Assembly: GCF_012849375.1 (NCBI RefSeq)
Contig: NZ_CP051684.1
Span: 868,001-932,000, forward strand
Length of the DNA stretch: 64,000 bases
Reading direction: 5' to 3'
Source of the DNA: Duganella dendranthematis
Lineage (GTDB): Bacteria > Pseudomonadota > Gammaproteobacteria > Burkholderiales > Burkholderiaceae_D
The notes under the pieces are model-generated. The model was not told where the DNA came from. It did not search any database and saw only the letters and a program-made list of their open reading frames with translations. Within the stretch, counting starts at the first letter, position 1, and the number at the start of each line of letters is the position of its first letter. Made by a program: the position numbers and the translations under genes. Shown here one piece after another: positions 2,788 to 62,269 of the stretch.

Positions 2788-3426
2788 ATGAGCTCAACCA
2801 AGGCATTTTCGGGCAGCCTGTTCGTGGTGGCGGCGCCGTCCGGCGCCGGCAAGTCGACGCTGGTCAACGCGCTGCTGGCCAAGGAACCGACCATCAAGCT
2901 GTCGATTTCCACCACCACCCGCGCGCCGCGTCCGGGCGAAACCCACGGCCAGCAATACTACTTCACCACGGCGGAAGATTTCGTCGCGCGCGCCGACAAC
3001 GGCGAGTTCCTGGAGTGGGCCGAAGTGCACGGTAATTATTACGGCACCTCGCGCCTGATGGTGGAAGAACAGATGAAATCCGGCACCGACGTGTTGCTGG
3101 AAATCGACTGGCAAGGCGCGCGCCAGGTCAAGAAACTGTTCCCGCAAGCGGCCGGCATTTTCATCCTGCCGCCATCGATCGACGCGCTGGAAGAGCGCCT
3201 GAAAAAACGCGCCACCGATGAACCGCACGTGATCACCAAACGGCTGCTGGCGGCGGGCGGCGAAATCGCCCACGCTCCCGAGTTCGAGTATGCTATTATC
3301 AACGAAGAATTCGACGTCGCGCTGTCGGAATTGACAGCGATAGTCCGAGCGGCCCGTTGCCGGTTTGCGCAACAAGCGGCACGCAACACCTCGCTCTTTG
3401 CCCAGCTGGGCATCCACGCTGAATAA
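2788..3426 (+). CDS. gmk: Guanylate kinase
   Basis: Guanylate kinase transfers phosphate from ATP to GMP, giving GDP for nucleotide synthesis and supplying the (p)ppGpp precursor pool. The 212-residue protein has the P-loop APSGAGKS at residues 16-23, the GMP-binding stretch [11 protein letters not shown] (about 37-47), and the lid and core segments Y-Y-F-T and [11 protein letters not shown]. Length is normal. The gmk-rpoZ-spoT order is the classical proteobacterial arrangement and supports the assignment. rpoZ follows after 25 bases, so the two are probably co-transcribed. Cytoplasmic. Confidence 0.97.
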
Positions 3427-33347: not shown

Positions 33348-34199
33348 ATGCTGACCGTCTCTTCTGCCGATATCAATATGTGGATCGCCGGCCTGTTGTG
33401 GCCGCTGTGCCGCATCATGGCGCTGATCGCCGCCTCGCCGCTGCTGGGCAATAGCGCGGTGCCGGCCAGCGTCAAGCTGAGCCTGGGGGTGATGATCGCC
33501 GCCATCGTCGCGCCGGCGGTGCCGGCCTGGCCAGCCACCGACCCGATGTCCTGGGCCGGCCTGCTGATTGTTATGCAGGAAATGTTGATCGGGCTGGCCA
33601 TGGGCTTCAGCATCCGCATTATTTTTGCGGCGGTGGAGATGGCGGGGGAAATTTCCAGTTTGACCATGGGCCTGGGATTCGCCACCTTTTTCGATCCGAC
33701 CACCCAGGGCCGCTCGTCGGCGATCAGCCAGTTTCTGTCGCTGGTGGCGACCATGGCCTTTTTGGCGGTCAACGGCCACCTGGTGCTGCTGTCGGCGCTG
33801 GTGGAAAGTTTTTCCACGCTGCCGGTGTCGGCCATTCCAGTCTACGGCGGCGGTTTCAAGCAGCTGGCCGACTGGGGCGGCATGATTTTCAGCGTCGGGG
33901 TGCAACTGTCGTTGCCGATCGTCGCAGCTTTACTGATTACTAACGTGGCGCTCGGCATCCTGACGCGCGCCGCGCCGCAGCTGAATTTGTTTGGCATTGG
34001 CTTCCCGATAACATTGGGCGTCGGCTTGCTGGTCATCGCCATGACGCTGCCTTACCTGGGAATGCCGATCCAGAATCTGTTTTTGGACGGGATAGAGCGC
34101 GCGCGGCTGATGCCGCGGACCTGGTCGCAGCGACCGCAAGTAGTCAAACCGGCAACCGTTCCGGTTCGGCCAGCGGTGCTGCAACCGATGGCGGAATAG
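33348..34199 (+). CDS. fliR: Flagellar export gate protein FliR
   Basis: FliR closes the FliP5-FliQ4-FliR1 channel. The 283-residue protein has six predicted membrane segments and the conserved E-M-L-I-G-L-A-M-G-F (about 80-89) and M-G-L-G-F-A-T-F-F-D-P motifs (about 106-116). It is longer than enteric FliR because of a 20-30 residue basic/Pro tail. The 88-bp gap after fliQ contains a TACAAT box near 33,309, which could be a secondary promoter. FlhB, usually next, is not here; the giant repeat gene follows instead. Confidence 0.95.
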   Translation: MLTVSSADINMWIAGLLWPLCRIMALIAASPLLGNSAVPASVKLSLGVMIAAIVAPAVPAWPATDPMSWAGLLIVMQEMLIGLAMGFSIRIIFAAVEMAGEISSLTMGLGFATFFDPTTQGRSSAISQFLSLVATMAFLAVNGHLVLLSALVESFSTLPVSAIPVYGGGFKQLADWGGMIFSVGVQLSLPIVAALLITNVALGILTRAAPQLNLFGIGFPITLGVGLLVIAMTLPYLGMPIQNLFLDGIERARLMPRTWSQRPQVVKPATVPVRPAVLQPMAE

Positions 34200-34220
34200 C
34201 CTCATCCATTCGCATTTTGG

Positions 34221-34234
34221 TTTCCTTAAGGAAA
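34221..34234. promoter_or_regulatory. 14-bp perfect palindrome upstream of the giant repeat gene
   Basis: TTTCCTTAAGGAAA is a perfect palindrome. A TATCAT box at 34244-34249 lies ten bases downstream and could be the -10 element of the giant gene, which would put the palindrome over the -35 region. It looks like an operator. No sigma-28 promoter can be read here. Confidence 0.45.
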
Positions 34235-34274
34235 TTTAACGCGTATCATGGCAGCACCCTAGGGAGATCCTGTA

Positions 34275-37200
34275 ATGACTTCGATTATCGCCAACCTCAA
34301 TTCTGACCAAATCGCCGCCATCTCGACCGAGCAGATTGCAGCACTGGCCAGCGAAGACATGCAGGCCCTCACGTCTGACCAGCTGAGCTGGTTCAGCACC
34401 GACCAGGTGCGGGCGCTGACCACCCGCGCCGTGACCCAGCTGACCGCCACCACCCTGGGCGGCCTGAGCACCGACGGCATCCAGGCGCTGCGCACCACCC
34501 AGCTGACCGCGATCCCGACCGCCATCCTGTCCGGCCTGACCTCCGACCAGCTGGTGGCGCTGACCACCCAGGACATGCCGGCCCTGACCACCGGCCAGGT
34601 GAGCGCGCTGTCGGCCGCCCAGTTCGCCGCGCTGGAAACCGACGACCTGCGCGCGCTGCGCACCCAGCAGATCGCCGCTGTCAATTCCAACCAGTTGCCG
34701 GCCCTGAGCACCGACCAGTTCACCGCGCTGAGCACGCTGCAGTTGCGCGCGCTCAGCACCAGCGCCGTGACCACCATGACGTCCGACCAGGTGGCGTCGC
34801 TCAGTTCGCAGGCGCTGCAAGCGCTGCGCACCGACCAGATCAATGCCCTCAACGCCAGCCAGCTGAATACCTTGAACGTCGACCAGATCGCCTACCTGAG
34901 CACGCTCCAGGTCGCCTCGCTGGCGACCGCTTCGGTAGCGGCACTGACCGGCGACCAGGTCGCCGCGCTGGAAACCCGCGACCTGATCTGGCTGTCCAGC
35001 CAGCAGGTCCGCGCGCTCAACGGCGATCAACTGGCCTTCCTCAGCACCGACCAGCTGCATGCGCTGCGCACCAACGAAATCGCCGCCCTGCTGGCCGACC
35101 AGATCAGCGCGCTGAGCACCGACCAGCTGAATGCGCTGACCACGCTGTCGCCGCTGAACTCGGCGCAGATCGGCGGCCTGACGGTGGACCAGATCGTCGG
35201 CCTGACCACCAAGACCATCACCGCCCTCAGCAGCGAGCAACTGGCCGCGTTCAACGCCGACCAGATCGCCAGCCTCAGCACCGACCAGATCGTCGCGCTC
35301 AGCAGCCTGCAAGTGTCGACCCTGACCACCGGCATGATCAGCCAGCTGAGCACCGACCAGCTGGGGGCGCTGGAAACCCGCGACGTGCCGGCGCTGACCA
35401 GCGGCCAGCTGCGCGCCCTCACCTACGACCAATTGGTGGCGCTCACCACCGGCCAACTGGCGGCCTTGTCCAGCGCCATGCTGCCATCGCTGAGCCCGGA
35501 CCAGATCAGCGTCCTCAACACCGACCAGATCGCCGCGCTGAAAAACCTGCTGCTGCTCACCACCGCGCAGTTCGCCGCGCTGACTACCGACCAGTTGGCC
35601 GGGCTGGAAACCCGCGACTTTGTGGCCCTGACCAGCGCCCAGCTGGGCGCGCTGACGGGCGACCAGATCGCCGCACTGAGCACCGACCAGGTGGTGCTGC
35701 TGACCTCAGCCCAGGTCAGCGCCCTGACCACCGCCGTGGTCGGCCAGCTCAGCGCCGCCCAGATCGCCGCGATTGAAACGCGCGACATCCGCGCCCTGAC
35801 CACCGGCCAGATCGGCGCGCTGAATAGCGACCAGCTGGTGGCGCTGACCACCGATCAGATCTACGCGCTGACCACCGACGACGCCAAGGCCTTGCGCCCG
35901 GACCAACTGGCCGTGATGACCACCGCCCAGATCGTCGCGATCAAGACCATCCTGCCGCTGACCACCGCGCAGATCGCCGCGCTGACCACCGAACAGGTGG
36001 CGTCACTGGAAACCAAGACCATCGCCACCCTGACCAGCGCCCAGCTGGCCGCACTCGGCCTGGAGCAGGTGCAGGCACTGACCTCGGACCAGCTGGTGGC
36101 GCTGAGCACCACCCAGATGACCACGCTCGGCACCACGCTGCTGAGCGAACTGACGCCCGTCCAGTTGCAGGTGCTGGAAACCCGCGACGTCGCCGCGCTC
36201 GGCTCGGCGCAGATCGGCGCGCTGTCGGTCGAGCAGCTGACCGCGCTCACCACCGACCAGTTCGGCGCGCTGAGCAGCGCCGCCGAACGCGGCCTGACGG
36301 CCGACCAGATCGCCGCGCTGACCACCGAACAAATCGCCGCGCTGGCATCGCTGGCGCCATTCAGCACGCTGCAAATCCAGGCGCTGACCACGCTCCAGCT
36401 GGTGGGGCTGGAAAGCCGCGACCTGGTGGCGCTGACCAGCACCCAGCTGGCCGCGCTGACCGTCGACCAGATCCAGTCGCTGAGCGCCACCCAGATCGTC
36501 GACCTCAGCACCAACCAGTACGCCAGCATGGGCACCGACATGCTCAACACGCTGACCACCGACCAGCTGATCCTGATTGAAACCCGCGACATCGCCGCGC
36601 TGCGCAGCGCGCAAGTGGCGGCGCTGGCAACTGGTCAATTGTCGTCACTAACCACCGACCAGTTCACCGCGCTCAGCAGCGCCGCCATCGGCGCCCTCAG
36701 CACCGCGCAGATCCAGGTGCTGACCAGCGAGCAACTCAACGCCATGAGCACGCTGGCCGGCATCAGCAGCCGCCAGCTGGCGGCCTTCACCACCGACCAG
36801 ATCAGCACGCTGTCGACGCGCAACCTGACGACGCTGGCCAGCAGCCAGCTGGGTGTGTTGACCTCCGACCAGGTGCAGTCGCTGACATCGGACCAGATCG
36901 TTGCCCTCAGCGGCGACCAGTTCCGCGGTCTCAGTTCGGTCGGCATCGCCGCCCTCACCCCCGACCAGCTGCATGCGATCGAAACCCGCGACATCGCCGC
37001 GCTCAGCACGCAACAGATCACCAAATTCACCACCGACCAGATCGTCGCGCTGCTGACCGAGCAGCTGGCCGCGCTCACCACCGCCGAGACCGCCGCATTG
37101 ACCAGCGACCAGATCGCCACGCTGAACGACGCTCAGCTGGACGCGCTGAGCAATCTCAGCGTGCTGACCACGCTGCAAATCCGCGCCCTCACCAGCGACC

Positions 37201-40200
37201 AGCTCGGCGCGCTCAACACCGACGACCTGGTGACGCTGACCAGCCGCCAGTTGGCCGCCCTCAGCAGCGACCAGTTGCAGGCGCTCGGCACCGCCCAGAT
37301 CGTCGCGCTCAGCACGGCGCAGGTCGCCGCACTGAGCACCGCCGCGATTACCGCGCTCAGCCTGGAAGCGATCGCCGCCATCGAAACCCGCGACATCCGC
37401 GCTATGCGGACCGCCCAGATCGCCCGCCTCAGTACCGACCAGGTGATGGCGCTGACCAGCGACCAGTTGGCCGCGTTCACCACCGCCGAAGTGCGGGCGC
37501 TGACGCCGACCCAGATCAGCGTGCTGACCACCGAGCAACTGACCGTGCTGCAACTGCTGCCGCTGGTCACCAAGCAAATCGTCGCGCTGACCAGCGACCA
37601 GATCTCGCAGATGAGCAGCAGCGACTTCGCCAAGCTGCAAACCGTGCAGCTGGCCGCGCTGTCGGCGGCCCAGGCCGGCGCCATCACCAGCGCCCAGATG
37701 GTGGCGTTGGGCACCGACCAGCTGCGCGCGCTGAGCACCGCCACACTGTCGGCGCTGGCCGATGACCGCATCGTCGCCCTCAGCAACGGCGACCTGGCGG
37801 CGCTGACCACGCGCCAGATCGCCGCGCTGACCAGCGACCAGCTGGCCGCGCTGAGCACGGCCCAGCTGCGCGCGCTGACCACCCAGGAAATCGCCGCGCT
37901 GACGGCGCTGCAATTGAGCGCGATGGTGGATGCCCAGCTCGACGCGCTGCAAACCCTCGGCGCGCTGACCACCCGCCAGTTGCAGGCGCTCAGTACCGAA
38001 CAGGTGTCGCACCTGAACGTGGCCGACCTGCGCTCGCTCAGTACGCGCCAGGTATCGGCGCTCGGCAGCGACCAGGTGGCGGCGCTCAGCACCGCCCAGC
38101 TGGCTGGCCTGCTGAACGAACAGCTGCGCGCCATCAGCACGCGCGCCATCCAGGCGCTCGGCACTGAGCAGCTGACCTCGCTTAGCGGCGCCGCGCTGTC
38201 CAGCCTCAGCACGCGCCAGATCGCGTCGCTGACCACCGACCAGGTGGTGGCCCTGACCACCCAGCAGATCACCGCGCTGACCACGGCCGAAGTGGCGGCG
38301 CTGACGCCGGCGCAAAAATCCGTGCTCAGCAGCGAACAGATCGCCGCCCTGCCGTCGCTGGCCAGCTTCTCGACACTGGCCATCGCTTCGCTGACCACCG
38401 AGCAGATCGTCGCGCTGCCGTTGGCGACGCTGGCCAGCCTGACCACGCGCCAGATCGCCGCCCTGACCACCGAACAGACCAGCGTGCTGACCAGCGCCGA
38501 AATCATCGCCCTCAGCACCGGCCAGGTGCGTGCGCTGAGCACGCTGCAGTTGTCGGCGCTCAGCACCAACCAGATCCAGGCCATCGAGGTGGCCGACCTG
38601 CAAGCGCTGTCGACCAAGCAGGTCGTCGGCCTCAGCACCGACCAGATCAGCAGCCTGACGCTGAGCCAGATCGGCGGCCTCAGCACGCAAGTGATCAGCG
38701 CGCTGACCACCGCCCAGGTGCATGCGCTGAGTACCCGGCAGATGGCGGCGCTGAGCACGCTGGCGCCGCTGACCAGCAAGCAGATCGGCGCCCTCACGAC
38801 CGAGCAGATCGCCAGCCTGTCGAGCATCGCCACGCTGAAGACCAACCAGATCGCCGGCCTCACCAGCGACCAGATCGGCGCGCTGACCAATAGCCAAATC
38901 GTCGCCCTTACCACCGCCCAGGTGCGCAGTCTGAGCGCCAGCGCGCTGGGCGCGCTGTCACTCAGCCAGGTGGCGGCGATTGAAGCGGTCGACATCGGCG
39001 CGCTGACCAGCAAGCAGATCACCGCTTTCACCAGCAGCCAGCTGGGGGCGCTGACGTCATCCCAGTTCGCGGCGCTGCGCACCGCCATCCTGGCCAGCCT
39101 GACCACCCGCCAGGTGGCGGCCCTGTCCAATGACCAGATCGACAGCCTGGCGTCGCTGGCGCCGCTGACCACCAACCAGGTGCGCGCGCTGACCAGCGGC
39201 CAGATCACCAGCCTGCTGCTGCCGCAGATCGGCACGCTGACCACGCGCCAGCTGCGCGCGCTCACCAGCGACCAGCTGCAAACGCTGAGCGAAGACCAGC
39301 TGGTGGCCTTGAGCACCGCGCAGATCCGCGGCCTGGGCGCCGCGCTGGCGCTGCTGACGCCGGACCAGATCGCCGAAATCGCGCTGGACGATATCGCCGC
39401 GCTGTCCACCGCGCAAGTGGTGGCGCTGAACACCGACCAGGTGGCGGCCTTGACGGTGGCCCAGCTCTCGGCCTTCACCTCGCAGGAAATCGCCGCGCTG
39501 ACACCGGCCCAGCTCAGCGTGCTGAGCGATGCCCAGTTCGCCGCGCTCGGCAGCTTGGGCGGGCTCGGCACCAAGCAGATCGCCGCCATGTCGTCGGACC
39601 AGATCATCGCGCTGACGCCGGACCAGATCGCCAACCTGAAAACCAGCCAGATCGCCGCGCTCAGCAGCACCCAGATCCAGTACCTGAGCGTCACGCAGAT
39701 CCCGGCCCTGACCACCGCCCAGATCCGCTCGCTGTCAAACGCCGCCATTGCCGCGCTGACGCCGGACCAGCTGGCGGCGCTGGAAGACGCCGACCTGCGC
39801 GCCTTCAGCACCCGCCAGATCACCGCCCTCGGCAGCGACCAGCTGGCGGCGCTGACGCTGGCCCAGTACGGTGTGCTGACCACCCAGGAAATCGCCGGCT
39901 TCAGCACCCGCCAGATCAGCTGGCTGGACAACACCCAGCTGGCCGCCCTGGCCACCCTGGCAGCGCTGACTAGCAGCCAGGTACGCGCCCTCGGCAGCGA
40001 CCAGATCGGCGGCCTGACGGTCGACCAGCTGACCTCCTTCAAGACCAGCCAGCTGGCGGCCCTGACCGCCGCCCAGGCGGACGGCCTGAGCGCGGCGCAA
40101 CTGATCGCCCTCAGCACCGGCCAGGTGCGCTCGTTGTCCAGCGCGCTGATCGCGCACCTGAGCGACGCCCAGCTGACCGCCATCGAGACCGAAGACTTTG

Positions 40201-43070
40201 CCGCGCTCAGCAGCACCCAGCTGCGCGCGCTGACCACCGACCAGATGGCGGTGCTGCTGACCGAGCAACTGCATGCCCTGAGCAGCGCCAACATCAACGC
40301 CTTCAGCCAGGCCCAGATCGGCGCCCTCAGCGCCGCCCAACTGGCCGCGCTGGGCAACCTGGCCGACTACACCACCACCCAGATCGCCGGCCTGTCGACC
40401 GACCGCATCATGACGCTGACGGCGGACGACCTGGCCCTGCTCAGCACGCGCCAGATCGGCGCCCTGACGTCGGTGCAGACCGGCGTGCTGGACGCCACCC
40501 AGCTGGCCGCCCTGAGCGGCGCCCAGATCGGCGCGCTCAGCATCAAGGGCCTGGCCGGCTTGACGGCCGCCCAGTTGCCGAGCATCGACGCCGACGACTT
40601 CGCTTTCTTCAAATCGGCCCAGGTGGCCGCGCTCACTACCGATCAGTTGGCCGCACTGACCAGCGACCAGTTTGCCGCCCTCAGTACCCAGGGCGTGGCG
40701 GGCCTGAAGGCCGCCGTGCTGCCGTCGCTGAGCGCCGAGCAACTGAACGCGCTGCACATCGTCGGCCTCAGCACGGCGCAGGTGCGTGCGCTGACCAGCG
40801 ACCAGATCACCGGCTTGTCGTCCGACCAGATCGCCGCGCTGAAGACCAACCAGATCGCCGCCCTCAGCAATGCCCAGGCCGCGGCGCTGACCACCGAACA
40901 GATCGTCGCACTGGAAACCGGCGACCTGCTGGCAATGAATACCCGCGCGCTGCAATCGCTGAGCGTGGAGCAGATCGCCGCCATCGAAGGCCAGGACCTG
41001 GTCGCGCTGAAATCGGCGCAGATCGCCGCCCTGACTTCGGCCCAGTTCGGCGCACTGACCAACGACCAGATCAGCTTCCTCAGCACCGCCGCCATGGCCG
41101 GCCTGACCGTGGCCCAGGTGCAGAGCCTGAGTGCCGGCCAGGTGACCGGCCTGACTGGCGGCCAGCTGCGCGCCCTCAGCACCAAGGCCATCGCCGCACT
41201 CGACGCCACCCAGTTCGGCGCCATCGAGGCGGCCGACATGGCGTCGCTGACCACCGCGCAAATCGTTGCGCTGGGCACGGCCGATATCCAGATCATCAGC
41301 AACGACCAGCTGCAAGGCCTGACCTCATCGCAAGTGCGCGCGCTCAGCACCGCCCAGGTCGCCGCGCTGAGTTCCGAGCAGCTAGCCTTGCTGCCGATCG
41401 GCTGGCTGAGCACCCGCCAGCTGCCGGCGCTCAGCACCGACAACTTGAGCGGACTGGACGATAGCCAGCTGGGCAACCTCAGCACGACCCAGATCGCCTC
41501 GCTGTCGAGCAAGCAGATCGCCACGCTGACCGAGCACCAGATCCAGGCGCTGTCGGTGGCGCAATGGCGCGCCATGAGCACCGGCGCCATTCGCGCCCTC
41601 AGCAGCGAGCAGCTAGCCGCGATGGAACAGGAAGACCTGGCCGGCCTCAAGACCAACCAGTTCGCCGCGCTCAGCACCTTGCAGATCAGCCAGCTGAGCC
41701 TCGACCAGATGGGCCAGCTCAGCACCGCCGAGATCGCCGCGATGACGGCGGCGCAGCTCAAGACCCTGACCACCGACCAGCTGGCCGCACTGAACTCGCT
41801 CAATCCGCTGACCACGCTGCAATTCAGCGGCCTGACCAGCGAGCAGTTGCAATCGCTGGACGCGGCCCACATCGCCACACTGAAAACCAGCCAAGTCGCT
41901 GCGCTGACCAAGACCCAGCTGCAGATCCTGGGCACCGATCAGATCATTGCGCTGACCACCGCGCAAACACGGGCGCTGGCGCTGGCCGCGCTGGCCGGCC
42001 TGTCGACCGAACAGATCGCCTTGATGGAAGTGGAAGACGCGGCCGCCCTCAGCAGCGCCCAGCTGGCGATGCTGAACACCACCCAAGTGACGGCATTGAC
42101 GCTGGACCAGTTGTCCAGCCTGAAATCGTCGCAACTGCCGGGCCTGAACGCCGCCGACCTCAAGGCGCTCAGCACCGACCAGCTGAACGCGCTGGTCACG
42201 CTGGGTACGCTGAACGACAGTCAGGTCGCGGGACTGACCGTCGAGCAGTTGGGTGCGCTGGACGACGACAGCTTCCTGTCGCTGCGCTCGGCGCAGATGG
42301 CGGCGCTCAAAGCGGCCCAGGTCGCGGCGCTGTCGACCGACCAGCTGGCCAACCTGACCACCCAGCAGGTCAGCGGCCTGACGCTGACCTACCTGACCAC
42401 CGAGCAGTTCCCGCTGCTGAGCGTGACGGCCATGAGCGGCCTGACTTCGACCCAGATCAGCACGCTGAAAACCACCCAACTGAGCGTGCTGACGGCGACG
42501 CAGCTGAACGCACTGTCGACGCGCACGCTGGCGGCGCTGACGGTTAGCCAGATCAAGGGCTTGACCACCGAGCAGTTGAGCGGCATGAACACGCTGGCTG
42601 GTTTCACCACGCTGCAAATCCCGGGTCTGACCTCGGAACAGGTAGCGGCGCTGTCCGACAGCCTGTTCGACACGCTGAGCACGCGCCAGCTGTCGGCGCT
42701 GGCCACGGCCCAGGTGGCCGGCATGACCACCACGCAGATCGCCACCCTTAGCACCGCCGACCTCGGCGCGCTGTCGGTGGTGGCGCTGAACGCCTTCAAT
42801 TCCGACCAGATCACCGCGCTCGACGCCACCGACATGGCGGCGCTAAAAACCGCGCAGCTGGTCGGCCTGAAGGCGGCCACGGTGGAGCTGTTCAGCGCCG
42901 ACCAGTTCAAGGCGCTGACCACCGGCCAGCTGAAATCGCTGATCTCGACCCAGCTCAAAGCCATCACCACCGACCAGTTGGCGGCACTCAGCATGACCCA
43001 GGCCACCGCCTTGCTGGCCAATCCGGCCAAGGCCTCGCTGTCGACCGACCAACTGGCGGCGCTGACCGCC
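34275..43070 (+). repeat. 24-bp coding repeat arranged in ~402-bp super-repeats
   Basis: At DNA level the octapeptide repeat appears as a degenerate 24-bp unit rich in CTGACCACCGACCAG-like words. The super-repeat of about 402 bp can be followed by the 6-residue breaks, at about 35,145; 35,545; 35,950; 36,345; 36,750; 37,150; 37,555; 37,960; 38,360; 38,765; 39,165; 39,555; 39,960; 40,360; 40,755; 41,395; 41,805; 42,205 and 42,595. The interval 40,755-41,395 is longer. One unit counted in full (from F-S-T-L-Q-I-Q-A near 36,355) has exactly 16 octads plus six residues. The units have diverged at DNA level, so expansion is old. Confidence 0.88.
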
Positions 43071-43838
43071 AGCCCGCTGGTGCTGGATCTGGATGGCCTC
43101 GGCATCAACACGCTGAACATCAACGCCGGCGTCACCTTCGACATCCGCGCCGACGGCACCAAGGTCAACACCGGCTGGGTCGGTTCCGGCGACGGTTTGC
43201 TGGCCCTGGACCGCAACGGCGACGGCCTCATCAACGACGGCAGCGAACTGTTCGGCACGGCGACCGCCAGCAGCAGCGGTGGCAAGACCAGCAACGGCTT
43301 TGCCGCGCTGGCCGACATCGACAGCAACCACGATGGCGTGATCGACAGCAAGGATGCGCAGTTCGGCAACCTGCGCGTGTGGGTGGACGCCAATGCGGAC
43401 GGCGTCAGCCAGGCCGACGAACTGAAGACGCTGGCTTCGCTGAACATCGCCAGCCTGACGGTGGCGGCGCAAGGCGTGAAGAACTTCGACAACGGCAACT
43501 GGATCGGCATGGAGTCGAGCTACACCAGCACCGATGGCAGCACGCATGCGCTGGCCGACGTCTGGTTCCAGGCGGGACGCGCCAGCGATGTCAGTGCGCT
43601 GAGTTCGGCCATCAGCGGTTACCAGAACAGTAGCGCCACGAGCACGACCAGCACGCCGGCGACGAAACTGGACACGACTACTGCAAGCGGCCTCAGCAGC
43701 AGCGTGGCCGCGCTGGCCGGGGAAATGCATCACTACCAGGCCACCACCGCGCTCAGCGGCGTCACCACGGCCACCCGCGACGACGACTGGCTGCGCAAGC
43801 AGGCCAGCGCCAGCCACGGCATCCTGGCGGCCAAGTAA
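34275..43838 (+). CDS. Giant octapeptide-repeat protein with C-terminal EF-hand-like domain
   Basis: This 3,187-residue protein makes up 9.6 kb. Residues 1 to about 2,930 are an unbroken octad repeat, consensus L-(S/T)-(T/S)-x-Q-(I/L/V)-x-A, about 350 copies. About every 134 residues (16 octads plus a 6-residue break such as S-T-L-A-P) the pattern resets; inside each unit the variant L-E-T-R-D recurs. S/T at position 2 and Q at position 5 resemble helix capping boxes. The last ~250 residues start L-V-L-D-L-D-G-L-G-I and have three Ca-binding-loop-like motifs: D-R-N-G-D-G-L-I-N-D-G-S-E-L-F-G, D-S-N-H-D-G-V-I-D and D-A-N-A-D-G-V-S. No signal peptide, membrane segment or RTX nonapeptide is visible. 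The start has GGGAG upstream. It is flanked by fliR and flgL. A secreted surface or filament-associated protein is plausible but unproven. Confidence 0.9.
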   Translation: MTSIIANLNSDQIAAISTEQIAALASEDMQALTSDQLSWFSTDQVRALTTRAVTQLTATTLGGLSTDGIQALRTTQLTAIPTAILSGLTSDQLVALTTQDMPALTTGQVSALSAAQFAALETDDLRALRTQQIAAVNSNQLPALSTDQFTALSTLQLRALSTSAVTTMTSDQVASLSSQALQALRTDQINALNASQLNTLNVDQIAYLSTLQVASLATASVAALTGDQVAALETRDLIWLSSQQVRALNGDQLAFLSTDQLHALRTNEIAALLADQISALSTDQLNALTTLSPLNSAQIGGLTVDQIVGLTTKTITALSSEQLAAFNADQIASLSTDQIVALSSLQVSTLTTGMISQLSTDQLGALETRDVPALTSGQLRALTYDQLVALTTGQLAALSSAMLPSLSPDQISVLNTDQIAALKNLLLLTTAQFAALTTDQLAGLETRDFVALTSAQLGALTGDQIAALSTDQVVLLTSAQVSALTTAVVGQLSAAQIAAIETRDIRALTTGQIGALNSDQLVALTTDQIYALTTDDAKALRPDQLAVMTTAQIVAIKTILPLTTAQIAALTTEQVASLETKTIATLTSAQLAALGLEQVQALTSDQLVALSTTQMTTLGTTLLSELTPVQLQVLETRDVAALGSAQIGALSVEQLTALTTDQFGALSSAAERGLTADQIAALTTEQIAALASLAPFSTLQIQALTTLQLVGLESRDLVALTSTQLAALTVDQIQSLSATQIVDLSTNQYASMGTDMLNTLTTDQLILIETRDIAALRSAQVAALATGQLSSLTTDQFTALSSAAIGALSTAQIQVLTSEQLNAMSTLAGISSRQLAAFTTDQISTLSTRNLTTLASSQLGVLTSDQVQSLTSDQIVALSGDQFRGLSSVGIAALTPDQLHAIETRDIAALSTQQITKFTTDQIVALLTEQLAALTTAETAALTSDQIATLNDAQLDALSNLSVLTTLQIRALTSDQLGALNTDDLVTLTSRQLAALSSDQLQALGTAQIVALSTAQVAALSTAAITALSLEAIAAIETRDIRAMRTAQIARLSTDQVMALTSDQLAAFTTAEVRALTPTQISVLTTEQLTVLQLLPLVTKQIVALTSDQISQMSSSDFAKLQTVQLAALSAAQAGAITSAQMVALGTDQLRALSTATLSALADDRIVALSNGDLAALTTRQIAALTSDQLAALSTAQLRALTTQEIAALTALQLSAMVDAQLDALQTLGALTTRQLQALSTEQVSHLNVADLRSLSTRQVSALGSDQVAALSTAQLAGLLNEQLRAISTRAIQALGTEQLTSLSGAALSSLSTRQIASLTTDQVVALTTQQITALTTAEVAALTPAQKSVLSSEQIAALPSLASFSTLAIASLTTEQIVALPLATLASLTTRQIAALTTEQTSVLTSAEIIALSTGQVRALSTLQLSALSTNQIQAIEVADLQALSTKQVVGLSTDQISSLTLSQIGGLSTQVISALTTAQVHALSTRQMAALSTLAPLTSKQIGALTTEQIASLSSIATLKTNQIAGLTSDQIGALTNSQIVALTTAQVRSLSASALGALSLSQVAAIEAVDIGALTSKQITAFTSSQLGALTSSQFAALRTAILASLTTRQVAALSNDQIDSLASLAPLTTNQVRALTSGQITSLLLPQIGTLTTRQLRALTSDQLQTLSEDQLVALSTAQIRGLGAALALLTPDQIAEIALDDIAALSTAQVVALNTDQVAALTVAQLSAFTSQEIAALTPAQLSVLSDAQFAALGSLGGLGTKQIAAMSSDQIIALTPDQIANLKTSQIAALSSTQIQYLSVTQIPALTTAQIRSLSNAAIAALTPDQLAALEDADLRAFSTRQITALGSDQLAALTLAQYGVLTTQEIAGFSTRQISWLDNTQLAALATLAALTSSQVRALGSDQIGGLTVDQLTSFKTSQLAALTAAQADGLSAAQLIALSTGQVRSLSSALIAHLSDAQLTAIETEDFAALSSTQLRALTTDQMAVLLTEQLHALSSANINAFSQAQIGALSAAQLAALGNLADYTTTQIAGLSTDRIMTLTADDLALLSTRQIGALTSVQTGVLDATQLAALSGAQIGALSIKGLAGLTAAQLPSIDADDFAFFKSAQVAALTTDQLAALTSDQFAALSTQGVAGLKAAVLPSLSAEQLNALHIVGLSTAQVRALTSDQITGLSSDQIAALKTNQIAALSNAQAAALTTEQIVALETGDLLAMNTRALQSLSVEQIAAIEGQDLVALKSAQIAALTSAQFGALTNDQISFLSTAAMAGLTVAQVQSLSAGQVTGLTGGQLRALSTKAIAALDATQFGAIEAADMASLTTAQIVALGTADIQIISNDQLQGLTSSQVRALSTAQVAALSSEQLALLPIGWLSTRQLPALSTDNLSGLDDSQLGNLSTTQIASLSSKQIATLTEHQIQALSVAQWRAMSTGAIRALSSEQLAAMEQEDLAGLKTNQFAALSTLQISQLSLDQMGQLSTAEIAAMTAAQLKTLTTDQLAALNSLNPLTTLQFSGLTSEQLQSLDAAHIATLKTSQVAALTKTQLQILGTDQIIALTTAQTRALALAALAGLSTEQIALMEVEDAAALSSAQLAMLNTTQVTALTLDQLSSLKSSQLPGLNAADLKALSTDQLNALVTLGTLNDSQVAGLTVEQLGALDDDSFLSLRSAQMAALKAAQVAALSTDQLANLTTQQVSGLTLTYLTTEQFPLLSVTAMSGLTSTQISTLKTTQLSVLTATQLNALSTRTLAALTVSQIKGLTTEQLSGMNTLAGFTTLQIPGLTSEQVAALSDSLFDTLSTRQLSALATAQVAGMTTTQIATLSTADLGALSVVALNAFNSDQITALDATDMAALKTAQLVGLKAATVELFSADQFKALTTGQLKSLISTQLKAITTDQLAALSMTQATALLANPAKASLSTDQLAALTASPLVLDLDGLGINTLNINAGVTFDIRADGTKVNTGWVGSGDGLLALDRNGDGLINDGSELFGTATASSSGGKTSNGFAALADIDSNHDGVIDSKDAQFGNLRVWVDANADGVSQADELKTLASLNIASLTVAAQGVKNFDNGNWIGMESSYTSTDGSTHALADVWFQAGRASDVSALSSAISGYQNSSATSTTSTPATKLDTTTASGLSSSVAALAGEMHHYQATTALSGVTTATRDDDWLRKQASASHGILAAK

Positions 43839-43934: not shown

Positions 43935-45209
43935 TTAGCTGATGTAATTAAACAGCGACAGGCCCGACATCGTGGTGAACGATTTCTGCGCCGCCGTCAG
44001 CGTGGTCTGCTGCTGCGTGAACAGCGAAATCGCCGCCGTGTAATCCAGATCCTGCAGGGTCGACAGCGTGCTGGCGTACTGCAAGCCGGCGTCATCACCC
44101 GAACTGTCCAGATAATCCAGCTCCTTCAGCCGCGCGCCGACCGCAGAGTTGACCGACGACACATTTTCAGCGGCGTTATCGATATTCACCTGCAACTGGT
44201 TCAGCATATTGTTCAGGCTGGCCTGGCCGGCAGGACCGGAACCCGGCTGGCGCAGCTGGTCGATAAAGCTCTGCACCGTGGTAAACACCGACTGCTTGGT
44301 CGATGGCTCGACCGTAAAGCTGTCGCCGTCGGCCGGATCGCCCTGGACATCAAACTGCACGCCGTCGAACGAGATATTCTGGCCGCTGACATACGCCTGC
44401 GGCACGGCCGGCACCGGGGTCGGCGGCACCGGCACCGGGTTGGCGGGATCGGTCATGTCGGTCACTGTGTAGGTGGTGGCCTTGGGCACGCCCGCCGTGG
44501 CCGGCACCACCTGAAAACTGATCTGATAATTGTGTCCCGGCAGCACCTGGGTTGCGTCCTTGACCGAGCCGGCGCTGATGATGCCGCTACCGCCACGACC
44601 GTAGTTGCCCGGGTCCGGCTTGGTGACAAAGGTGCCATTACCGGTCTGGTTGGCCTCGAACACGGAAGAGCCGGAATCGGTGATCGGCACGGTGCGGGTG
44701 GTGCCCACTTGCAGCGAACGCTGTCCCTGGTCGCCCTGGTAGTCGGCGCCGGTGGCGGTCTTGGTGAACGGCAAAGTGGTCGACTTGTAGCCGGAGAACA
44801 CATAGCCGCCGACGCCGTCAGCGGTGTTGGCGATGCCCATCAGGTCGGCGAGCTTGCCTTCCAGCTCGATCGCCACCGACTCGCGGTCGGCGTCGGTGTA
44901 GGTGCCGTTGCCGGACTTCACCGCCAGGTCCTTGATGTCCTGCAGCAGCGACGTGGTGCTGGACAGCGCCGTCGTCTCGATCCCCAGCACGCCCTTGGCG
45001 TTGGAGCGGTTGGTGGCCAGCTGGGTGTTGAGCGACTGTGACTGCGTCACTTCCAGCGCGCGCGAACTGGCGATCGGATCGTCGGCCGCGGTCAGGTTCT
45101 TGCGGCCGGTCGACAGCTGCTGCTGCGTGCGCGCCATGGCCGAACTCAGCGACGTGATCTGCATCGAGCCGGTGTCAAAAATTGTTCTGGTGCTGATGCG
45201 CATAACCAT
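43935..45209 (-). CDS. flgL: Flagellar hook-filament junction protein FlgL
   Basis: FlgL is the second junction protein, between FlgK and the filament. The 424-residue protein has flagellin-like termini: R-I-S-T-R-T-I-F-D-T-G (about 4-14), Q-L-S-T-G-R-K-N-L-T-A-A-D-D-P near 31-45, and a C-terminal helix ending in N-Y-I-S. Its middle part (about 140-320) is a variable Thr/Pro/Gly-rich domain, so it is longer than the ~310-residue enteric form. The ATG at 45209 follows AGGG; an ATG two codons later is equally possible. It lies 16 bases after flgK and shares its sigma-28 promoter. Confidence 0.95.
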   Translation of the reverse strand: MVMRISTRTIFDTGSMQITSLSSAMARTQQQLSTGRKNLTAADDPIASSRALEVTQSQSLNTQLATNRSNAKGVLGIETTALSSTTSLLQDIKDLAVKSGNGTYTDADRESVAIELEGKLADLMGIANTADGVGGYVFSGYKSTTLPFTKTATGADYQGDQGQRSLQVGTTRTVPITDSGSSVFEANQTGNGTFVTKPDPGNYGRGGSGIISAGSVKDATQVLPGHNYQISFQVVPATAGVPKATTYTVTDMTDPANPVPVPPTPVPAVPQAYVSGQNISFDGVQFDVQGDPADGDSFTVEPSTKQSVFTTVQSFIDQLRQPGSGPAGQASLNNMLNQLQVNIDNAAENVSSVNSAVGARLKELDYLDSSGDDAGLQYASTLSTLQDLDYTAAISLFTQQQTTLTAAQKSFTTMSGLSLFNYIS

Positions 45210-61231: not shown

Positions 61232-62269
61232 TCAGTCGCGGAAAACCTGGTCTAGGGTACTGGCGTCAACGAAGTTCAGCCCCCATTTGGACAGTTGGTC
61301 AACCTCGGCGTTAGCCAGGCGCGCCACCATGTCAGGAGCGAGCGGGCCGAAGCGCTTGTTCAGTAGCGCCACCAGCAGCTCCGCCCCACCTTCCTTTCGA
61401 CCTTCCTGTCGGCCTTCCTGCAGCCCCTTCTGTCGGCCTTCCTGTAACCCCTTCTGCATTCCCTTCTGCAACCCCTCCTCCAATCCTTTCTGCAACCCCT
61501 CCTGCAGGCCTTTGTTCATACCAATCTCCATCCCTATACGCTCATATGAGGTGACATAAGGCATAGCTCTTCTCCTTTCCAATTCCAGGATTCCATACCT
61601 AAGCCGCTTATCAAGCGACTTGGGCAGACGCATTAGCCAGTCGATCGTGCGGTGCAGATTAATGATACGCCGCTTGTCCCAGTCACGTTGATACAGTAGC
61701 TTGGCCAAACGCCACTTGGCGCGGCGGCGTTGATGAGGGCTGTGTTTGGTTTGCTGCGTCAACAGGTGGGCCGCAGTCACCAGCGCAAACGGATTGGCAT
61801 CAGTCAAAAGCGCGTCCATGCAGCCGGCATAGTCCTGCAGCTTGACCACTGGAAAATTCAAGCGCAACTCGCAGCCCAATAGGGAATACGCGAACGATGC
61901 TGGCCTCCAGCGCGGCCCCGGATCGGCCAGCACCGCCATGCTGGCGACCGGCCTGCGATAGCGGTCATACACGCGGTAGTGATACGTGAAGATGCGTTCG
62001 GCAAAACCGACGTCGCGCCAGCCCTGCACTTCCAGGTGCACCAGCACCCACTGCTCGCCGCCGTGATGCAGATACACGCGCACCAGCTTGTCCAGCAGGC
62101 GCTTGCCCAGCTCGGCACCGGGCGACAGCGCAGACAACTCCTGATCGAGAAAATCATGCGGCCGCGACCAGTCGATCACGGCATGCGCCGAGGGGAAGTA
62201 GAAAGCCATGAATTCAGGGAAGTGATCGGTGATCACGTCCTTCCACGGCGTATCGTAATCGTCATTCAT
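61232..62269 (-). CDS. Rpn-like PD-(D/E)XK nuclease family protein with GLQEG-type tandem repeat
   Basis: This 345-residue protein resembles the Rpn/YhgA-like family of recombination-promoting nucleases. It has the N-terminal D-x-x-x-P-W-K-D-V-I, the P-D-(D/E)xK-like core V-L-V-H-L-E-V-Q-G-W (about 74-83) and a C-terminal DUF4351-type region (A-E-L-L-V-A-L-L-N-K-R-F-G-P-L). Between them, at about residues 247-292, is a repeat of G-L-Q-(E/K)-G units, seven or more in a row. It has no link to flagella and sits between flhF and flhA, splitting an operon normally uninterrupted. A perfect 11-bp inverted repeat overlaps its start codon. Probably a laterally spread gene. Confidence 0.8.
   Translation of the reverse strand: MNDDYDTPWKDVITDHFPEFMAFYFPSAHAVIDWSRPHDFLDQELSALSPGAELGKRLLDKLVRVYLHHGGEQWVLVHLEVQGWRDVGFAERIFTYHYRVYDRYRRPVASMAVLADPGPRWRPASFAYSLLGCELRLNFPVVKLQDYAGCMDALLTDANPFALVTAAHLLTQQTKHSPHQRRRAKWRLAKLLYQRDWDKRRIINLHRTIDWLMRLPKSLDKRLRYGILELERRRAMPYVTSYERIGMEIGMNKGLQEGLQKGLEEGLQKGMQKGLQEGRQKGLQEGRQEGRKEGGAELLVALLNKRFGPLAPDMVARLANAEVDQLSKWGLNFVDASTLDQVFRD

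Follow-up and report, generated by a model that had tools for sequence, protein, structure and literature searches.

The window analysed here, a 64,000-nucleotide stretch of the Duganella dendranthematis genome, carries within its flagellar genes a single giant gene (Table 1). It starts 75 bp past fliR and on the same strand, with flgL downstream on the opposite strand, so that its placement between fliR and flgL in the initial annotation is correct. The frame opens with ATG and runs for 3,187 codons with no internal stop, giving an acidic protein (327.5 kDa, pI 4.3) that contains no cysteine and for which no N-terminal signal peptide was seen by eye.

Table 1. Features in and around the fliR-flgL interval, in window coordinates.
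Feature	Position	Strand	Basis or remark
fliR, neighbour	33348..34199	+	upstream
conserved non-coding element, candidate promoter or operator	34219..34250	+	inverted repeat and -10-like TATCAT
giant ALTTAQ (PF20080) octad-repeat protein	34275..43838	+	ORF and profile match
octad array, about residues 8-2929, ~134-residue super-repeats	34296..43061	+	segmentation, alignment, AlphaFold2 of residues 428-695
FrpC self-processing-module-like domain (residues ~2934-3100), Ser in place of the scissile Asp	43074..43574	+	sequence homology, Foldseek
C-terminal tail, low confidence, ends GILAAK; candidate type I secretion signal (inferred)	43575..43835	+	tail similarity
flgL, neighbour, convergent	43935..45209	-	downstream

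Segmentation with a position weight matrix yields 337 octads, 335 of which begin before residue 2935; their consensus is L-[TS]-[TS]-x-Q-[ILV]-x-A. The gaps between runs hold more 8-residue units that score below the threshold, for a total of about 340-350, and the ~350 octads in one unbroken 9.6-kb frame first reported are therefore a fair count. The consensus reported with them is likewise borne out by the position frequencies (position 1 L 85%, 2 T/S 72%, 3 T/S 72%, 5 Q 75%, 6 I/L/V 86%, 8 A 62%). Ser or Thr occupies position 2 in 243 and position 3 in 241 of the 335 octads, and there are 691 Ser/Thr within residues 1-2,930. Two features are absent from the initial annotation: the separate C-terminal domain and tail from residue ~2934, and an element of 5-6 residues (e.g. 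LASLAP) that resets the register about every 16 octads and so creates a super-repeat of ~134 residues. When windows of two super-repeats are compared, 15 more align to the first over 268 columns with 38-51% identity.

The array matches the Pfam 'ALTTAQ repeat' (PF20080) in 107 stretches with 1,660.5 bits and an E-value of 0, where the curated cut-off is 26.4 bits. On the sequence evidence, this match and the open frames of nine orthologues, the array is not a product of chance. The profile search that had been proposed for the octad thus leads to a described repeat family, for which no known role was found; indeed, there is no mention of 'ALTTAQ' or 'PF20080' in the open-licence literature searched, and hence no function for the repeat was found there. 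Fibrillar adhesins are defined by a repeated stalk and at least one adhesive domain (PMC8286594). Of these, the giant protein has a stalk-like array, as modelled by AlphaFold2, and no adhesive domain was recognised in it by Pfam search.

The AlphaFold2 model of residues 428-695 (pLDDT 89) is a solenoid with one short helix per octad, and this prediction backs the earlier proposal that a short helix starts at each octad and that the helices stack. Octad positions 1 and 5 are the best conserved between orthologues, with identities of 0.81-0.98 in the seven orthologues tabulated, and position 4 is the least conserved (0.38-0.79), followed by position 7; the peak at positions 1 and 5 is the pattern expected from a solenoid core with Q capping. 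The best Foldseek match of the array model is mesothelin (E 1.1e-4), in which 24 short helices make up a right-handed solenoid (PMC10035497), and the predicted fold resembles that of mesothelin and of ARM-like superhelices.

The C-terminal domain is homologous to the self-processing module of Neisseria FrpC (PDB 6sjw/6sjx), both in sequence (E 1.9e-40) and in predicted fold, its own model matching 6sjw by Foldseek with E 2e-17 and TMt 0.76 at a pLDDT of 64 overall, weak outside the core. FrpC is a type-I-secreted RTX protein; its module takes up four calcium ions on folding and cleaves the Asp-Pro bond at its edge, Asp414-Pro415 (PMC7078468). The acidic calcium-loop residues of FrpC are retained in the alignment, while the residue preceding the first Pro in the domain of the giant protein is Ser. 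Of 66 ALTTAQ frames in the fetched stretches, 43 could be read at this position (L023 and the D. alba locus L079 being one gene, and the other 23 being cut or without the motif), and they have Thr in 27 cases, Ser in 16, and Asp in none. Ser or Thr also precedes Pro at 9/9 sites in database ALTTAQ proteins (one of them P0001), and Asp does so at 27/168 FrpC-module-like sites of non-ALTTAQ giants. A Ser or Thr at the scissile position would mean that this FrpC relative is not expected to clip. The two also differ in placement, the module being internal in FrpC and C-terminal in the giant protein. Outside the host's family, the FrpC-like domain was found in only one (G563) of 11 genomes having an ALTTAQ frame past the octad count. 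The tail of the giant protein resembles the tails of relatives linked to type I secretion genes; a Pfam search of the protein did not find RTX nonapeptide repeats (PF00353), which were looked for as a mark of type I substrates. Giant exoproteins often have FrpC-module-like sites, and 141/168 of those in the non-ALTTAQ giants have no Asp before Pro.

Downstream of fliR, the spacer ahead of the gene contains a block, TTTGGTTTCC...GCAATTT...GCGTATCATGG, that is common to ten sequences (the window counted) with single departures and that occurs once in the host genome at up to 2 mismatches. The consensus promoter scan called no promoter at this element, despite the -10-like TATCAT, and scanning the spacer for sigma-28-like sites found none. 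The conservation of the element suggests that the gene is under its own control, although read-through from the fli operon is possible.

fliR and flgL are convergent in 38 of the 39 family loci fetched, no flgL being seen in the other. Eighteen of these 38 loci have more than 1 kb between the two genes, owing to ALTTAQ in 5; in the others the intervening sequence is, for example and as identified by eye, a C1-peptidase-hydrolase, an RHS-like protein, or a TonB receptor. ALTTAQ is in the fliR slot in the window genome, G089, G144, G166, G188, and G171, the last from another genus, which amounts to 6 of the 20 family genomes with ALTTAQ that were read (window counted) and none of the 20 without, where the former loci were picked for ALTTAQ and 8 of 28 ALTTAQ-containing genomes were left out. 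A fliR-linked copy in the same slot and strand is present in Duganella levis, D. margarita, D. aquatilis, D. alba (the gene of G188), Duganella sp. 1224, and Duganella sp. OV510, these being six of 15 loci examined. These loci, and the identity of L023 with the D. alba gene, are the basis on which the window's genus in the genome sample is taken to be Duganella. A tree of 26 C-terminal domains places nine fliR-linked rows from Duganella in one group (89/95), the four rows linked to a GT41 glycosyltransferase in another (97/95), and seven of the eight type-I-linked rows, along with two others, in a third (89/87); the G171 row did not resolve, one duplicate was dropped, and rows including the D. 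levis copy were dropped by the motif filter. The fliR-linked rows are thus an orthogroup within Duganella.

The same loci and the window hold other items. A papain-like peptidase plus hydrolase-like protein of 698-773 aa occupies the fliR/flgL slot of three genomes (L016:6369, L017:15347, L018:10832), and in G089 it is there together with ALTTAQ. In G001 (L024:6253) fliR is followed by an exported-looking Ig-like giant of 2,200 aa, and in a genome of the window's genus (L038:12988) a VgrG-like gene adjoins flgG within the flg genes; all of these identities are by eye. A 12/24-bp tandem repeat is present near the right end of the window (61388-61513).

A slot with such varied cargo raises the possibility that the gene is a passenger, a selfish or neutral repeat expanded by slippage in a tolerated hotspot and without constrained function. 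The protein does evolve faster than its neighbour (66% identity to Duganella sp. OV510, against 88% for fliR), and one paralogue, described below, consists in part of near-identical 217-aa tandem units. Against this, the frame is open over 2,819-3,343 aa in the nine orthologues, the length is held at 3,182-3,205 aa in six of ten (window included), dN/dS is 0.25-0.80 and so below 1 in all nine comparisons, and octad positions 1 and 5 are conserved far beyond position 4, all of which makes a passenger highly improbable.

The host genome itself has at least five genes matching PF20080, the window copy and four at 2.08-2.21 Mb. One of these, a 1,923-aa paralogue, has an HlyB-like ABC gene and an HlyD gene directly downstream in the same orientation; the HlyD product scores 315.5 bits, above the cut-off of 208.65, and the ABC product has HlyB as its best model at 640.7 bits, below its cut-off of 725.55. 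Several near-identical tandem units of 217 residues are seen in this type-I-linked paralogue (L010/L011, G000:C1:2104405-2110227), a sign of recent expansion. The gene after another paralogue, 3,251 aa long, encodes a 1,150-aa protein that combines TPRs with GT41 (8e-85) and methyltransferase domains. The stretch between these two paralogues contains GT2, DegT, hexapeptide, and FdtA genes, and a set with FdtA, DegT, and acyltransferase genes may point to an amino-deoxy sugar. No secretion or glycosylation genes are beside the window copy in the 64-kb window, and the surroundings of the two 2.20-Mb copies showed none either; the ABC/HlyD adjacency seen for one paralogue and many relatives is absent at the window copy.

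Linkage to these genes recurs across genomes. Among the matches listed, ALTTAQ is present in at least 28 of 195 sampled family genomes, own genome included. An ABC protein (E <= 1e-250) is present in 23 of the 195 and GT41 (E <= 1e-100) in 42, at limits chosen by us. Again among the matches listed, the ABC protein is in 20/28 genomes with ALTTAQ and 3/167 without (Fisher p 5e-18), and GT41 in 26/28 and 16/167, respectively (p 3e-19), p values that overstate significance because the genomes are related. At the stricter limit of E <= 1e-200 for GT41, ALTTAQ is in 16 of 18 genomes, and within the genus of the window (12 genomes) the ABC protein is in 9/9 with ALTTAQ and 0/3 without, both among the matches listed. 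At the chosen thresholds, 8/28 genomes with ALTTAQ have no close ABC protein and 2/28 no GT41. The three genomes with the ABC protein and no listed ALTTAQ are two drafts (80% and 68% completeness) and one complete genome, and absence from drafts is soft since many contigs break within repeats.

The fetched stretches, annotated with a longest-frame script and BLAST against the window and own-genome proteins, include 37 genomes with an ALTTAQ frame; ABC or HlyD is within 6 kb in 25 of them and GT41 in 12, rates that are biased since some stretches were chosen around ABC/HlyD or GT41 genes. For G583 and G563 the ABC/HlyD genes match weakly (31%; 23-24%) and lie on the opposite strand. In one genome (L075) the order ALTTAQ-ALTTAQ-GT41-ABC-HlyD is found on one strand, and two more genomes (L108, L109) have GT41-ABC-HlyD on one strand. 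ALTTAQ is also in at least 21 of 398 sampled genomes of the phylum, own genome included; from 12 of the other 20, 16 stretches were fetched. Here ABC-HlyD-ALTTAQ occur in a row in four of the eight genomes of family f47 examined, the 5,432-aa ALTTAQ gene of G563 is followed by a GT41 relative of 52% identity, and a GT41 relative follows ALTTAQ at one of two loci in G542. ALTTAQ arrays in database proteins are also joined to other export-linked domains (PF05860, PF13018), and having the repeat is therefore not in itself a sign of type I export. It appears to be a module used by exported giants in general.

These distributions bear on the proposal in the initial annotation that the gene encodes a new flagellar component, which is not supported: the array belongs to a described family (with no role found) and four further copies are scattered at 2.08-2.21 Mb. 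The synteny is mixed, in that two of the scattered copies are near type I secretion or glycosylation genes, while the linkage to fliR itself does hold in six Duganella species with names and once in a genome from a second genus, so that flagellar co-regulation is possible. Nor is the gene conserved with flagella, fliR being present in 167/195 family genomes against at least 28/195 for ALTTAQ, which is in the fliR slot in 6/40 genomes read. The fact that the fliR/flgL junction accepts various cargo means that position within the flagellar cluster is weak evidence for flagellar function.

A looser link to the flagellum, with the fliR-linked orthogroup being a surface fibre of the flagellar regulon or a filament-associated glycoprotein, for example one tethering swimming cells, is kept as a rival in view of the conserved slot and of three other loci. 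In G001 (L025, another genus) fliC is followed ~0.6 kb on by ALTTAQ-ABC-HlyD; 12.8 kb of a betaproteobacterial MAG (L088) include ALTTAQ together with a GT41 relative (37%), a partial fliC, and a gene weakly matching fliD (29%); and in the database protein P0124 hook-type domains, FlgE_D2 and FlgD_ig, are fused to an ALTTAQ array. The occupancy of the slot in 6/20 against 0/20 genomes and the clustering by locus of the fliR- and GT41-linked copies in the tree are in keeping with this, and there is a precedent in FrhA of Vibrio cholerae, a flagellar-regulated RTX adhesin (PMC10865825). Against it are the other cargo in the slot, the many genomes with fliR and no ALTTAQ listed, and a spacer that has its own conserved element and no sigma-28-like site; P0124, which has no NCBIfam match, is known from a single 8.0-kb contig. 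A flagellum-linked fibre of this kind is possible, although we consider it unlikely. The flagellar type III apparatus encoded in the same operon might instead export the protein, given a start so close behind fliR on the same strand and the lack of a visible signal peptide, but the C-terminal domain and type of tail are common to the type-I-linked relatives and distant genomes have ABC-HlyD-ALTTAQ in a row, so that this route is very unlikely.

That relatives lie beside an export pump or a sugar-attaching enzyme points instead to a probable exported, sugar-coated surface fibre rather than a part of the flagellum. The reading that we favour, with some confidence, is that the giant protein is a type-I-exported, probably glycosylated fibre, a solenoid of mini-helices that is extracellular or on the cell surface. 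From the computed fold prediction, homology, linkage, and co-occurrence we infer export, glycosylation, calcium-driven folding, and an adhesive role. The protein would be kept unfolded in the cytosol, where the ~690 Ser/Thr of the array, a large number of them at octad positions 2 and 3, would probably be O-glycosylated before export by the cytosolic GT41 encoded next to the paralogue. A type I system (ABC/HlyD) recognising the C-terminal region would then export it in one step. Outside the cell, calcium would fold the C-terminal domain that resembles the FrpC module, and the octads, ~350 in all, would form a long, acidic, Cys-free solenoid of mini-helices, the product being a glycan-covered fibre for attachment, matrix, or surface protection. 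For the window copy, pump and glycosyltransferase would act in trans, since they are encoded ~1.2 Mb away. The fliR/flgL interval would be an insertion slot between convergent operons, with the upstream element providing the gene with its own regulation. Glycosylation by GT41 is probable from gene linkage and co-occurrence, with GT41 found also in 16 family genomes without ALTTAQ; the GT41 family includes Asn-glucosyl and O-fucosyl transferases. The full combination, in which an unfolded octad giant, sugared at hundreds of Ser/Thr by a cytosolic GT41, leaves through a dedicated type I pump to become a glycan-clad fibre outside and the Duganella orthogroup is made together with the flagellum and carried by swimming cells, is doubtful. 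No description of a GT41, type I, octad-fibre exoprotein system was found in the open-licence literature searched.

On the fibre reading, a named repeat family with no function found can be given a fold by prediction, a likely way out of the cell, and an enzyme that probably modifies it, and known systems share parts of this. HeliScrew4 (PDB 9zem) shares the octad sequence pattern with the array (E 4.8e-27). A cytosolic GT41-type glycosyltransferase paired with a giant exported adhesin is known from HMW1-HMW1C. HMW1 is exported by two-partner secretion and carries Asn-linked hexoses, whereas for the ALTTAQ giant type I export and modification of Ser/Thr-rich octads are proposed. The giant type I adhesins of the SiiE, MpAFP, and FrhA type are likewise giant repetitive proteins with a calcium-binding type of domain, and ABC/HlyD genes adjoin ALTTAQ relatives as well. 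The octad protein differs from them in its GT41 partner and in having no recognised adhesive domain. If the reading is true, a predicted alpha mini-helix solenoid stalk with a GT41 partner would be distinct from the Ig-like beta stalks of these known giant adhesins.
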